This document shows, in pieces, positions 1,099-18,136 of a DNA stretch of 64,000 nucleotides. Origin of the DNA: Acidobacteriota bacterium. Lineage in GTDB: Bacteria > Acidobacteriota > Terriglobia > Acidiferrales > UBA7541. Location: the NCBI GenBank assembly GCA_003223215.1, contig QHYH01000102.1, positions 1,848-65,847 of the forward strand, written 5' to 3'. The position numbers were made by a program, and so were the translations under genes. Under the pieces are notes generated by a model. It ran no database searches and was not told the DNA's origin. It saw only the letters and a program-made list of their open reading frames with translations. Numbering within the stretch: position 1 is the first letter of the stretch; every line of letters begins with the position of its first letter.

Positions 1099-4000
1099 TG
1101 TATGTGGAACTTCATTCTTGCTCTGCATTCAGTTTCCTGGAGGGCGCTTCCCTGCCCGAGGACTTGGTTAGCGAAGCGGCACGACTTGAGTTGCCAGCCA
1201 TCGCTTTGCTGGACCGCGATGGAGTCTACGGCTCCCCGCGCTTCCACATGGCGGCCAAGAAAGCAGGAATTCGCGCCCATGTGGGCGCGGAAATCTCCGT
1301 GGAAGGGTGCGGAACTCAAGCAGGCATGCCGTCCTGGATGCCAAACAAGATTCCTTCGAGACCGGTCCGGCTGGCTCTGCTTGCCAAGAACCGCACCGGA
1401 TACCAGAACCTCTGTCGTCTGATGACCCGCTACAAGCTGCGGGAAAAGGAAAAAGGGACAGGGGCCGCGACGCTGGAAGAAGTCGCGGAACGCGCCAAGG
1501 GGCTGGTCTGCCTCACCGGCGGCGAAGAAGGAATTCTGGCAGCGTCACTCGCGCAGGGAGGATCGGAAAAGGCCCGACGGGACATCGAAAAGCTTCTCAC
1601 GATTTTTGGAAAAAGGAACGTTTATGTAGAGGTTCAGCGCCATTTCGATCCGGCCGAAGAAACGCGCAACCAAGCTGCCGTTTGCCTTGCAGAGGGCTTG
1701 CATTTGCCTCTGCTCGCGACCAACGGAGTTCGTTACGCTCATTTCCAGGACCGCGAGATCCTCGATGTGTTTACCTGCATTCGCAACCACTGCCAGCTCG
1801 AAACGGCGGGACGGCTACTGGAGCGAAACGATGAGCGTCACTTTCGCCCGGCGGCGGAGATGACTCGGCTGTTTTCCGACCTGCCTCAGGCCATTGCGAA
1901 CACGGGCGAACTCTCGGCACGGCTCAGATACACCTTGGCGGACCTTGGCTATGGGTTTCCCAGATACCCGGTTCCCTCCGGCGAAACGATAGATTCTTTC
2001 CTCCGAAAACGCACGGAGGAGGGTTTCCGCGCGCGCTATGCGGCGAAGAGCAACGACAACCTCTACGAGCGCGCCGAACGGCAGGTTCGGCGGGAACTGG
2101 CTTTAATCGAGAAACTGAAGCTTGCCGGCTACTTCCTGATCGTTTGGGACATCGTTCGCTTCTGCCGTGAGGAAGGAATTTTGGTTCAGGGCCGGGGGTC
2201 GGCTGCCAACAGTGCCGTCTGCTATTCCCTCGGAATCACGGCCGTTGATCCTGTAGGTATGGAGTTGCTCTTCGAGCGCTTTCTTTCCGAAGAGCGTTGC
2301 GAGTGGCCCGACATCGACCTGGATCTGCCGAGTGGCGACCAGCGTGAAAAAGCCATTCAGTACGTGTACCAGCGCTACGGGCAGCTGGGCGCAGCGATGA
2401 CCGCGAACGTGATTACCTACCGTGGCCGTTCGGCGGCGCGCGAAGTCGGAAAAGTGCTGGGCTTCGATCGCGAGACTCTGGACCAGCTGTCCAGCCTGGT
2501 GAACACCTGGGGATGGCGGGATGCAACCGATTCGACGGAGCATCAGTTTCATCAGGCAGGCTTAGACCTTAGCCATCCCCGCGTTCAGAAATATCGCGAA
2601 TTGTGCGAACGCATTCAGGACCTGCCGCGTCACCTGGGCCAGCACTCTGGCGGCATGGTGATCTGCCAGGGGCAGCTGGATTCCGTCGTGCCGCTCGAAC
2701 CGGCAACCATGCCCGGTCGCGTCGTCGTGCAGTGGGACAAGGACGATTGCGCCGACATGGGCATTGTGAAAGTAGATCTGCTGGGTCTTGGGATGATGGC
2801 GGCCCTCGAAGACTGTTTGGGACTCGTTCCAAAACACTACCGGGAGCCGCTGGATTTGGCACAGCTTCCCGCCGACGATCCTCTGGTTTATGAAACGCTG
2901 CGGCGCGCGGATACCGTCGGAATGTTTCAGGTCGAAAGCCGCGCGCAGATGTCTTCGCTGCCGCGAAATGCGCCAGCAACGTTTTACGACCTGGTTGTGC
3001 AGGTCGCGATCATCCGCCCCGGCCCCATTGTGGGCAGGATGATGCACCCCTACATGCGGCGCCGTCAGGGACGGGAGCCAGTCGTGTATGCCCATCCTTC
3101 GCTCGAGCCCGTGCTGAAACGAACGCTGGGCGTGCCCTTGTTTCAAGAACAGTTGCTGCGCATGGCGATGATCGCAGCCAGCTTCACGGGCGGCGAAGCA
3201 GAAGATCTGCGGCGCGCAATGGGCTTCAAGCGGTCGGAAAGCCGCATGCGCGAAATCGAGGTGAAACTGCGTCACGGCATGGACCAGAACGGGATCCAAA
3301 GCGAGACTCAAGAAGAGATCATCACGCAAATCACGTCGTTCGCCCAATACGGATTCCCCGAGTCGCACGCGGCCAGTTTCGCGCTCATCGCCTACGCGAG
3401 TGCCTACCTCAAATGTCATTATCTGGCGGCATTCACGGCCGCCCTGCTGAACAATCAGCCCATGGGTTTCTACAGTCCGGCCACCCTCGTGAAAGACGCG
3501 CAGCGCCACGGCCTGCGAGTGAAACCCATCGATGCACGGTACTCAGAATGGCGTTGTACGCTTGAACGTGACCTAGACAAGGAGGGCAAGCCAGCGCCCT
3601 GCCTGCGAATCGGCTTTCGCTACGTCCGTGGTCTGCGCCAGGCTGCCGCCGAAGCGCTCGTCCGCCAGCGGCAGGTGTGTCCGTTTGCTGGAATCGAAGA
3701 CCTTGTCAAGCGGGTCCCTGAATTGCGGAAGTCGGAACTCGTGACGCTCAGCGAGATTGGAGCCCTGAACGGGCTTGGCCGGAAAATCCATCGCCGCTCG
3801 GCTCTCTGGCAAGTCGAACGAGCCGCGCGCCCGGCGGGCCGCTTACTCGAATCAATTCCGGAGCAGGCCGACGCGTCTCCGTTGCAACAGATGACCGACG
3901 AAGAAAGGCTGGTCGCGGACTTCCACGGCTCGGGCATGACCGCCGGTCCGCACCCGATGAGCTACTGCCGCGCTCGGCTGGACTCGCTGAAGGTGAAGCG

Positions 4001-14135: not shown

Positions 14136-14361
14136 CCGATTTGGTTCGCGGGACCCTAGGGTATCCCTATTGGGCATCTTCGCGCTACCGCATGCACAAC
14201 TGCGAGGCCATCAGCTCGTTGCTCCCACTATGCTTACACCTCTCACGCCTTGGCGAGGCTGGTTGAGCGGCCTTGGCCGCTAGGGTTGCTACCACGGCAA
14301 TCCCTCGCCGGGGGATGCGCAACGAACGAAGGCAACGTGAATGCGTGAGCTCGACGGCGGT

Positions 14362-14544
14362 CTATTTCAGCTGCAGCCTTGGCGTCTGACTCTCAACGGG
14401 GAGTCCGAGAAATCTCTCCGAGACACCGAAACCTGCATTGTTGACAAGCGGGTTTACGGGAAGCTTCCGGTCACTCAGTTGCAACACTTTCCCAAGCCCT
14501 TGAGAAGCGCCGATTACCAGGGCAAAACTTGGATTTGTCTGCAC
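14362..14544 (-). pseudogene. Short-chain dehydrogenase remnant with a large internal deletion
   Basis: The 60-residue frame joins two separate parts of an SDR. 'FALVIGASQGLGK' is the N-terminal cofactor motif, and 'VNPLVNNAGFGVSERFLGLP' is the NNAG strand that normally lies about 65 residues further on. Between them only ~10 residues are left, and the catalytic half is missing. This cannot be a working enzyme. Confidence 0.7.
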
Positions 14545-15777: not shown

Positions 15778-17085
15778 ATGTCTGAAGTGCAGCAGTTTCC
15801 TACTTTGCCCAGTCAGCCGTTCCGGCTCGACGTCCCTCTACACGAACTTCTGCAACAGCCTTCACGCGAAGCCATACCCCGAGCACCAGCCCTGAGGCAA
15901 GCGGCGTTGCCGACCGCCGTGTTCCCGCAACATCCGGAACTGTTTCACGATCTCGATGAGCAAGACATTGCGGCGCACGAAGCCGTACTTCGCACAGGAA
16001 AGCGCCACTGGCCCGCTTCCAAGATCCTGAAGACCATGAAAGGCTGGATGTTTCCTTACTTCAAGTCCCAAGTACTTCCGGGAGACTTCCAGCCGATCAT
16101 CGCTTACCTTTTCACCGAGTGGAAATGCAATCTTGACTGTCACTACTGCTGGTCTTATGACAATCGCGTCAAGGGCATGAGCGAAGACACTGCGCGGCGC
16201 GCGATTGACTGGCTACACTCGACGCCCTGCCGGGTCCTCGCGCCCACCGGGGGTGAGCCGCTCCTGCGTCCGGATTTTGTTCATAAGGTCGTGTATTACG
16301 CTGCGAAGAAAGACTTCTGGGTTTACCTGGCAACCAACGCACGGCTCTTGCGGCCGGAAGTAACAGACCGCCTTGCTGACGCGGGAATCGCCACCATCAA
16401 TTTTGCCGTCGACACGATCAGGGAAAAACCTGGCCTGCCCAAGGCCCTCGAGCACGTCCGATCGTATTTTGATTACCTTGTGCGAAGGCAATACCGCTAC
16501 GGGTACACGGTATTCTTTAATACGAACATCTGCCGCACAAACATCGAGGACGTGAAGGAACTCGCCAAAATCGCGCACGAGAACGGTATCTCTATCACGT
16601 TTCACATCAACGAAGCGCCGATGATGGAACAGGACCACTTCAAACACTTGCATGAGAACGATACCTACATCCGCCCGGAGGACTTCCCCGTGGTCGATGA
16701 CCTATTGGACTGGCTCATCGACAAGCAGCGTCAGGGCTGGAAGATGGTCGACTCCGTTCCTCGCCTGCAGAACATGAAGGGCTTCATGCGTGGGGTTGGT
16801 GGACATTGGGGCTGCCGTGCTGGCCAGAACTGGCTGATTATCCGCACGGATGGAACACTCGCGCCTTGTTTTCCCATGTACAACGCCGGATACGATTGGG
16901 GAACCATCGAAAACCAGAAGTTCAATCTGAAGCAACTCGAAGAGATGAAGCAGGGCTGCGAGCCGCACTGTTTTTCAACGCTCGGCTACAACGTAGCCTA
17001 TTGCTACAGCGTCTCGCGCGTCATGCGTTGGCTCCTGAAGCAAGCCAGCCACGGCTTTCAGGGCGTGACGGGCAGCTTTGAATAA
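15778..17085 (+). CDS. Radical SAM protein with Cys-rich C-terminal region
   Basis: Radical S-adenosylmethionine enzyme of 435 aa. The [4Fe-4S] motif CNLDCHYC gives C117, C121 and C124, followed by the GGEP-type motif (TGGEPLLRP). The C-terminal part has a second group of cysteines (GCRAGQNWLIIRTDGTLAPCF, GCEPHCF, AYCYS), suggesting an auxiliary cluster like that of SPASM enzymes. The N-terminal ~100 residues are an extra domain. A strong GGAGGTGG Shine-Dalgarno precedes the ATG. It is followed 17 bases later by a fatty-acid hydroxylase gene, so lipid modification is a fair guess, but the substrate is unknown. Confidence 0.9.
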   Translation: MSEVQQFPTLPSQPFRLDVPLHELLQQPSREAIPRAPALRQAALPTAVFPQHPELFHDLDEQDIAAHEAVLRTGKRHWPASKILKTMKGWMFPYFKSQVLPGDFQPIIAYLFTEWKCNLDCHYCWSYDNRVKGMSEDTARRAIDWLHSTPCRVLAPTGGEPLLRPDFVHKVVYYAAKKDFWVYLATNARLLRPEVTDRLADAGIATINFAVDTIREKPGLPKALEHVRSYFDYLVRRQYRYGYTVFFNTNICRTNIEDVKELAKIAHENGISITFHINEAPMMEQDHFKHLHENDTYIRPEDFPVVDDLLDWLIDKQRQGWKMVDSVPRLQNMKGFMRGVGGHWGCRAGQNWLIIRTDGTLAPCFPMYNAGYDWGTIENQKFNLKQLEEMKQGCEPHCFSTLGYNVAYCYSVSRVMRWLLKQASHGFQGVTGSFE

Positions 17086-17102
17086 GCCAGACCAAGCATG
17101 GG

Positions 17103-17867
17103 ATGTTCAGCAAGGAAGGGGATTTGTTCCTTTGGAGGCGATTTGTGTCTCTGGGATTGGCGCCAGCCCTAACTGACTATCGACCGATCGAAGGTTCCTT
17201 TGAAGCGTACAAACGCGGACAGTCCCGCATTGCCCGCCGGCGACTCTATCCGCTTACAGTTTTCTACGCTGTTTACTCGCTCATCGTGACGCTACTCATG
17301 TTGAGCAGCAGGCACCCGTTGCTCGGGATCATGTTTTATCTGGCGGGCATCCCAGTTTGGAGTCTGGTCGAATACCTCTTTCATCGCTACGCCCACCACG
17401 GCCGCTTTCTTCACGGGCGGCTCGACCCTCTTCACCGGGAGCGGCACCATGAAAGCCCCTTCGACGGAGGGCTCTTCAGCAAGGAGCTGAAGGATTTCTT
17501 GCCTCTGTTTTTCGTGGCCGCGCCTTTCAGCTTCCTATTTCCTGTGTACACTCTACCGGTTCTCCTTGCGGGCGTCGTCGAAAGCTATGTCGGCGAAGCG
17601 TGGATCCATTATTTCCTGCATTTCGGAAGGCTTCGCAATCGCTTCTTCCGGTTTCTCAAGCGCTATCACTTTTGCCATCATAGCCCGCGCGGGACGGAAA
17701 CGGGCTGTGGGATCGCTAGCGGGATTTTGCGTCGCTTGTTCCACACGCAGTACCCAAGGCTGGTTCGCAGACCACTGTCCAAAAGCGGCGGTCAGACGAT
17801 TCGCGTCAAGAAGATGACGCGGTCGGAAGCTTTAAGACTTTTCCGCGAAAGATTCAAGCAACAATGA
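17103..17867 (+). CDS. Sterol desaturase / fatty-acid hydroxylase family membrane protein
   Basis: Integral membrane di-iron enzyme of 254 aa. Three histidine clusters are visible: HRYAHH at residues 94-99, HRERHH at 111-116 and YHFCHH near 198. Hydrophobic segments are at about 48-85 and 127-155. The spacing and the 'VEYLFHRYAHH...HRERHHESP' pattern resemble fatty-acid 2-hydroxylases (Scs7/FA2H) and related lipid hydroxylases. It is flanked by the radical SAM gene 17 bases before it and a small membrane protein whose start overlaps its stop, which suggests one operon acting on a lipid. Confidence 0.9.
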   Translation: MFSKEGDLFLWRRFVSLGLAPALTDYRPIEGSFEAYKRGQSRIARRRLYPLTVFYAVYSLIVTLLMLSSRHPLLGIMFYLAGIPVWSLVEYLFHRYAHHGRFLHGRLDPLHRERHHESPFDGGLFSKELKDFLPLFFVAAPFSFLFPVYTLPVLLAGVVESYVGEAWIHYFLHFGRLRNRFFRFLKRYHFCHHSPRGTETGCGIASGILRRLFHTQYPRLVRRPLSKSGGQTIRVKKMTRSEALRLFRERFKQQ

Positions 17868-18136
17868 CTGTCAGCTCATGCGCCGGTTCTCGTTCGCCGG
17901 AGGCCCTGAACGATAAAGAGTTCGGAAAAATCATCAAACAGGCCACCGGGAGTGCCAAGCCTGACGCGAATTTCCCGAAGCGCTTAGAGCCAACGCCCGT
18001 AGTTACCGAGCGTGGCACCATGAGGCGCGAATTAAGTATCTCTGGCAATCAGCTCTTGGCTGCTTGCGTAGTGGCCTTCTGCTTAGCGGGTACACTGGTT
18101 TGGTCGTTTGTGAGGTACTGGTTGTTCGCGCCGTGA
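17864..18136 (+). CDS. Small single-pass membrane protein coupled to the hydroxylase gene
   Basis: Protein of 90 aa. The first ~55 residues are polar and the C-terminus has one hydrophobic helix (LLAACVVAFCLAGTLVWSFV) followed by RYWLFAP. The start ATG overlaps the TGA of the hydroxylase gene (ATGA), a sign of translational coupling. I do not recognise the family. An alternative start at the internal Met-Arg-Arg (about 18020) would leave a 38-residue membrane peptide. Confidence 0.6.
   Translation: MTVSSCAGSRSPEALNDKEFGKIIKQATGSAKPDANFPKRLEPTPVVTERGTMRRELSISGNQLLAACVVAFCLAGTLVWSFVRYWLFAP

Follow-up and report, generated by a model that had tools for sequence, protein, structure and literature searches.

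What does a radical SAM enzyme do directly beside a fatty-acid hydroxylase in a soil acidobacterium? The two genes lie in a 64,000-nucleotide stretch of DNA that was analyzed whole (the window), where 17 bases separate them and the hydroxylase frame overlaps that of a small ORF by 4 bases (Table 1). The original prediction described three ORFs on the forward strand with this spacing, and the window bears that description out; the prediction also read them as one unit modifying a membrane lipid. We propose, with a probability of roughly 60%, that the radical SAM protein has an accessory role in the modification of membrane-lipid chains, a reading based on sequence comparisons that place ether-lipid genes beside it in some relatives and the hydroxylase beside it in the window.

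Table 1. Features of the radical SAM/hydroxylase locus, with positions in the window.
Feature	Position	Strand	Evidence
Radical SAM protein, 435 aa, core with SPASM/twitch-like C-terminal region	15778..17085	+	PF04055, 71.8 bits
CX3CX2C cluster motif, codons 117, 121 and 124	16126..16149	+	Invariant in 47 aligned sequences
Four Cys presumed to bind an auxiliary cluster, codons 346, 364, 394 and 398	16813..16971	+	Invariant in 47 aligned sequences
Fatty acid hydroxylase, Scs7/FA2H-like, 254 aa, start codon uncertain	17103..17867	+	PF04116, 37.1 bits
Small ORF, 90 aa as called	17864..18136	+	ORF call
Last 38 residues of the small ORF, conserved; possible true start ATG 18020	18020..18136	+	Matches in relatives
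First 52 codons of the 90-aa ORF	17864..18019	+	Non-conserved except at most 13 residues adjoining the conserved part
Short-chain dehydrogenase remnant	14275..14478	-	46% identity over 69 residues, internal stop, E 1e-9

The radical SAM protein clears the Pfam cut-off for its superfamily (71.8 bits against 29.5), and the SPASM model PF13186, at 17.2 bits, falls under its cut-off of 21.5. Seven cysteines are invariant among the 47 aligned sequences. Three form the CX3CX2C motif, and the other four confirm the extra cysteines that the original prediction had noticed; these four would be enough for one presumed auxiliary [4Fe-4S] cluster, and we take the one-cluster form of this region to be "twitch-like", as the four residues suggest. 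Pfam matched no B12-binding domain in the protein up to an E-value of 1, and the zinc-ribbon domain found by Pfam in all three Tes-like proteins scanned is absent from it. Orthologues occur in 30 of 396 Acidobacteriota genomes (E ≤ 1e-40, the window genome included) and in 10 of the 36 genomes of the genus (E ≤ 1e-60), and a pattern-based search of genome_contigs returned 22 loci; many of the relatives that carry the gene are, to judge from their titles, metagenome-assembled genomes. The gene has a premature stop at two loci, L130 and L033:6001-7308, the latter being the closest hydroxylase-bearing relative, and these stops may reflect decay or error. Among the literature matches listed (title and start of abstract, few subscription journals), we found no description of this radical SAM family.

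Comparison with known lipid-active radical SAM enzymes sets the protein apart from the two that could be scored. The original prediction had called for a comparison with HMMs, and in it the Tes model NF045702 scored 42.3 bits, with 450 needed, matching the core only, and the model TIGR03470 for HpnH (adenosylhopene transferase) scored 38.9 bits, with 225 needed, Mss being outside the models compared. We reject both assignments. HpnH resembles the window protein as a radical SAM enzyme with a lipid substrate, but the genome has an HpnH of its own that scores 545 bits. Tes and Mss share the radical SAM core with the protein, and a Tes-like gene even adjoins its orthologue in L066; Tes differs in its model score, in its zinc ribbon, in size (435 aa in the window, 621-732 aa for Tes-like frames) and in being represented by separate proteins in the same genome. 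The window genome encodes two such Tes-like proteins, at 313 and 252 bits, both under the cut-off of 450, and the one of them that was compared with the radical SAM protein is similar to it in the core only. For Mss, the criterion given in the available part of PMC13274423 is identity above 30% at E ≤ 1e-30 to a known Mss. All of the best 25 of 61 NCBIfam matches lie far under their cut-offs, and none of these 25 assigns the protein to a known family with a non-lipid substrate, such an assignment being what the original prediction had named as fatal to its lipid reading. Gms, the GMGT synthase, is described in the portion of PMC11186832 seen here as a radical SAM enzyme with two auxiliary clusters that introduces a C-C cross-link into archaeal tetraethers. 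By that partial description, Gms and the window protein have in common N-terminal helices, a CX3CX2C core, a C-terminal SPASM-type region and an accessory step on spanning lipids, which for the window protein would be a proposed one, the difference being that the four further invariant cysteines of the window family would suffice for one auxiliary cluster.

The neighborhoods of the gene supply the main argument for a lipid substrate. We compared 56 loci and the window; three of them (L068, L148 and L149), having identical neighbors and contigs of equal length, repeat L051, L040 and L038, which leaves 54 distinct loci. At 13 of the 54, a PlsR-like gene and, where the contig reaches, a Ger-like gene run in the same direction as the radical SAM gene, in four different orders: plsR-rSAM-ger (L045, L046, L047, L057); rSAM-plsR(-ger) (L048, L049, L050, L058, L060, L061, L084), where the matched parts stand 72-75 bases apart in six of the seven and the radical SAM and partner genes of L084 are broken; Tes-like-rSAM-ORF-plsR-ger in L066, the only locus with a Tes-like gene upstream; and rSAM-LolA-like-plsR-ger in L147, which comes from the window's own genus. 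We set aside a tree-based count of a single origin for the PlsR/Ger neighborhoods, since L050, L061, L084 and L147 did not yet carry that label in the tree. The labels PlsR and Ger follow domain make-up and papers on such genes. In the two loci tested, L061 and L066, the Ger-like product combines two BcrAD_BadFG domains with DUF2229 (split over two ORFs in L066), and for the PlsR-like protein neither Pfam nor NCBIfam gave a match at E ≤ 0.01. These partners, found in 13 relatives, recall PlsA-PlsR and Ger (plasmalogen synthase and glycerol ester reductase); the likeness lies in the BcrAD_BadFG domains and DUF2229, the two-gene form in the relatives measuring about 1240 and 595 aa, and the window genome has no match. 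A make-up termed 'BB', of BcrAD_BadFG domains, is linked to alkyl-ether formation in the accessible text of PMC13274423, and PlsAR and Tes homologues are proposed for brGDGTs in Solibacter usitatus in the corresponding part of PMC10087280. By domain content, we consider the PlsA/Ger-like neighbors putative reductases of the ester-to-ether type. Their repeated and rearranged linkage to the radical SAM gene, once together with a Tes-like gene, argues that the enzyme acts on membrane-lipid chains. Another lipid-type neighbor, an AMP-ligase/ACP/acyltransferase fusion, lies within 1.3 kb of the gene in seven of the 54 loci (L034, L037, L039, L040, L041, L043, and L059, where only a piece of it is found) and is accompanied by a VTT-domain membrane protein in five of these seven.

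Against the lipid reading stands the possibility that the protein acts on a soluble small molecule and that its lipid neighbors reflect chance or regulation. More than half of the loci (29 of 54) have none of the three lipid-type neighbors (PlsR/Ger-like genes, hydroxylase or fusion), although 8 of these 29 have less than 2 kb of sequence on one side; 16 of the 30 radical SAM genomes are without PlsR or Ger, and the nearest folds are not Tes. The AlphaFold model of the protein (mean pLDDT 84) is closest among solved structures to BlsE, a radical SAM enzyme acting in blasticidin S biosynthesis (Z 22.1 over 291 residues, rmsd 3.2, 16% identity); its other fold neighbors are SkfB, SuiB, anSME, a sactipeptide maturase and viperins, and Tes ranks below many other radical SAM folds in VIA-align, at Z 16.5, a ranking that excludes nothing. 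We nevertheless consider a BlsE-like role unlikely, because the PlsR/Ger association persists through four different arrangements and spans no fewer than three families (f1, f2 and f62), a pattern not expected if genes were placed at random in genomes several megabases long.

Genome content agrees with the linkage, in counts that ignore relatedness throughout. A PlsR-like gene is present in 14 of the 30 radical SAM genomes compared with 23 of 366 others (odds ratio 13, p 1.6e-8), and a Ger-like gene in 14 of 30 compared with 27 of 366 (p 8e-8). The PlsR/Ger genes are linked to the radical SAM gene in six of the 14 co-occurring genomes (G007, G233, G329, G337, G370 and G377); in the other eight they sit on separate contigs or, in the case of G265, at a distance of about 175 kb. 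The remaining 16 of the 30, the window's own genome among them, gave no match to PlsR or Ger at E ≤ 1e-60, and in that genome PlsR-like matches were lacking at E ≤ 1e-3 and Ger-like matches at E ≤ 1e-60, so that nothing there points to ether lipids from this route. The predicted tie to ether and spanning lipids gains independent backing from part of the family (13 of 54 loci, with a Tes-like gene once). Tes-like proteins (E ≤ 1e-40) occur in 24 of the 30 radical SAM genomes and in 194 of the 366 others (odds ratio 3.5, p 0.004), and the six radical SAM genomes without such a match are the six of family f25.

This distribution also bears on whether the protein could itself be a further, diverged synthase of membrane-spanning lipids, joining two fatty-acyl tails as Mss or Tes does. 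The PlsR/Ger-like neighbors would then be the other half of a route proposed in the part of PMC13274423 consulted, and the distant match to the Tes structure would fit. We regard such a role as quite improbable, since a Tes-like protein is already present in 24 of 30 radical SAM genomes and in L066 stands side by side with the radical SAM gene, and since the protein lacks the zinc ribbon of the three Tes-like proteins scanned and falls far short of the Tes model, the one of the two enzymes compared. With a Tes-like protein in most radical SAM genomes, and many Tes-like genomes having no radical SAM gene of this family, accessory tailoring fits better than coupling.

We propose that the radical SAM protein, as a tailoring enzyme, would cleave SAM at the CX3CX2C cluster and abstract hydrogen at an unactivated carbon in the acyl or alkyl chain of a lipid, and that its single auxiliary cluster would complete the reaction, most likely by making a C-C bond or another tail modification. 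The candidate reactions include C-C bond formation and the introduction of a methyl, a ring or a cross-link. In relatives, the enzyme would provide accessory tailoring on the lipids handled by PlsR/Ger-like ester-to-ether reductases and Tes-like chain-coupling enzymes. In the window lineage, the FA2H-like, di-iron hydroxylase would hydroxylate the same acyl chains that its radical SAM partner handles; we infer the lipid substrate, the chemistry and the sharing of a substrate by the two proteins. The hydroxylase partner, together with the finding of no PlsR or Ger in the window genome, suggests that the substrate in this lineage is likely an ester-bound chain.

The hydroxylase itself belongs to the PF04116 superfamily (37.1 bits against a cut-off of 31, with conserved His motifs), and eleven histidines are invariant among the three hydroxylases aligned, from the window, L044 and L035. 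Scs7 is its best solved relative (E 5e-4, residues 66-216), which together with the Pfam match and the His-rich motifs likens it to the fatty acid 2-hydroxylases FA2H and Scs7. Scs7 carries a cytochrome b5 part; the window hydroxylase differs in being bacterial, 254 aa long and, in the Pfam search, in having no second domain. Its predicted structure was too poor for use (pLDDT 47). In a search limited to the genus, the hydroxylase was found in four of 36 genomes at E ≤ 1e-15 (the window's, G419, G401 and G439), and it adjoins the radical SAM gene in all four; G439 retains only a C-terminal radical SAM piece beside a run of N and stands outside the count of 10 in 36 given above. Among the 54 distinct loci, five have a hydroxylase gene downstream of the radical SAM gene and co-directional with it: the window, L033, L035, L044 and L143. 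The short-chain dehydrogenase that persists in the window as a remnant has intact homologues close to both genes at L033, L035 and L044.

The small ORF does not share this association. The two large genes of the predicted unit are real, but the trio is not conserved in relatives: the hydroxylase adjoins the radical SAM gene at five of 54 loci and the small ORF lies near the pair at two of those five, and we reject a conserved three-gene unit. The only copy near such a pair outside the window is that of L044, which follows the radical SAM gene on the same strand at a distance of about 2.3 kb. The 90-aa ORF matched no Pfam or NCBIfam family. Its conserved part comprises the last 38 residues (53-90), which define a hydrophobic one-helix protein family by their predicted sequence character, with matches in L044, G398, G401 and at a second place in G000, the window's genome; in all, 3 of the 41 genomes searched have a match, the window's own included. 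Homology extends up to 13 residues further upstream in three of four relatives, and the longest frames that the relatives allow are 38 residues in L044, set by its sole upstream start, 47 in L146, 75 in L145 and up to 78 in L144. The frames of up to 75-78 residues in two relatives make it less certain that the 90-aa ORF is a plain over-call; with relatives' frames ranging from 38 to 78 residues, the small ORF may be made in the window as either a 38-aa or a 90-aa form, so the 4-base overlap is unproven and carries little weight. The copies at L144:3516-3617, L145:3662-3769, L146:3317-3424 and L044:9631-9741 form a scattered family with a conserved hydrophobic C-terminus of 38 residues ending in R.WLF.

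A role in peptide (RiPP) maturation, with this small membrane peptide or the product of a different short ORF as the substrate, might be suggested by the fold neighbors SkfB, SuiB, anSME and the sactipeptide maturase, by the weak SPASM match and by the small ORF two genes downstream (2.3 kb away in L044). We hold it very improbable, given that only four auxiliary cysteines are invariant, that copies of the small ORF exist at sites without the radical SAM gene while next to most orthologues none was found, and that no short ORF was recognized as recurring beside the gene in divergent orthologues. No RiPP precursor was recognized near the gene: among 2151 short ORFs at 53 loci, the clusters common to orthologues less than 70% identical look, from where they lie and on which strand, like large genes read out of frame or in antisense.

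Branched tetraether lipids serve as climate proxies. Their biosynthesis is incompletely known, according to the sections of PMC13274423, PMC10087280 and PMC11868695 available here. A radical SAM family that recurs in PlsR/Ger-type clusters of Acidobacteriota and is distinct from Tes-like enzymes is a named candidate for deletion or expression in laboratory strains. We would call doubtful the more specific proposal that this family is one of the missing tailoring enzymes of bacterial spanning lipids, acting for instance in the step that gives brGDGT-type lipids their C5/C6 methyl, a ring or a cross-link, and that the hydroxylase of the window lineage would lead to an undescribed hydroxylated spanning or long-chain ester lipid.

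Two further arrangements of lipid-type genes came to light in these genomes. In five (G085, G122, G037, G306 and G258), the genome encodes, besides the two-gene PlsR/Ger-like pair, another homologue of about 1400-1500 aa whose sequence runs in one frame. In the window genome, HpnH adjoins a homologue, at 47% identity, of the AMP-ligase/ACP/acyltransferase fusion (L003:724-1848 and 2132-3274).
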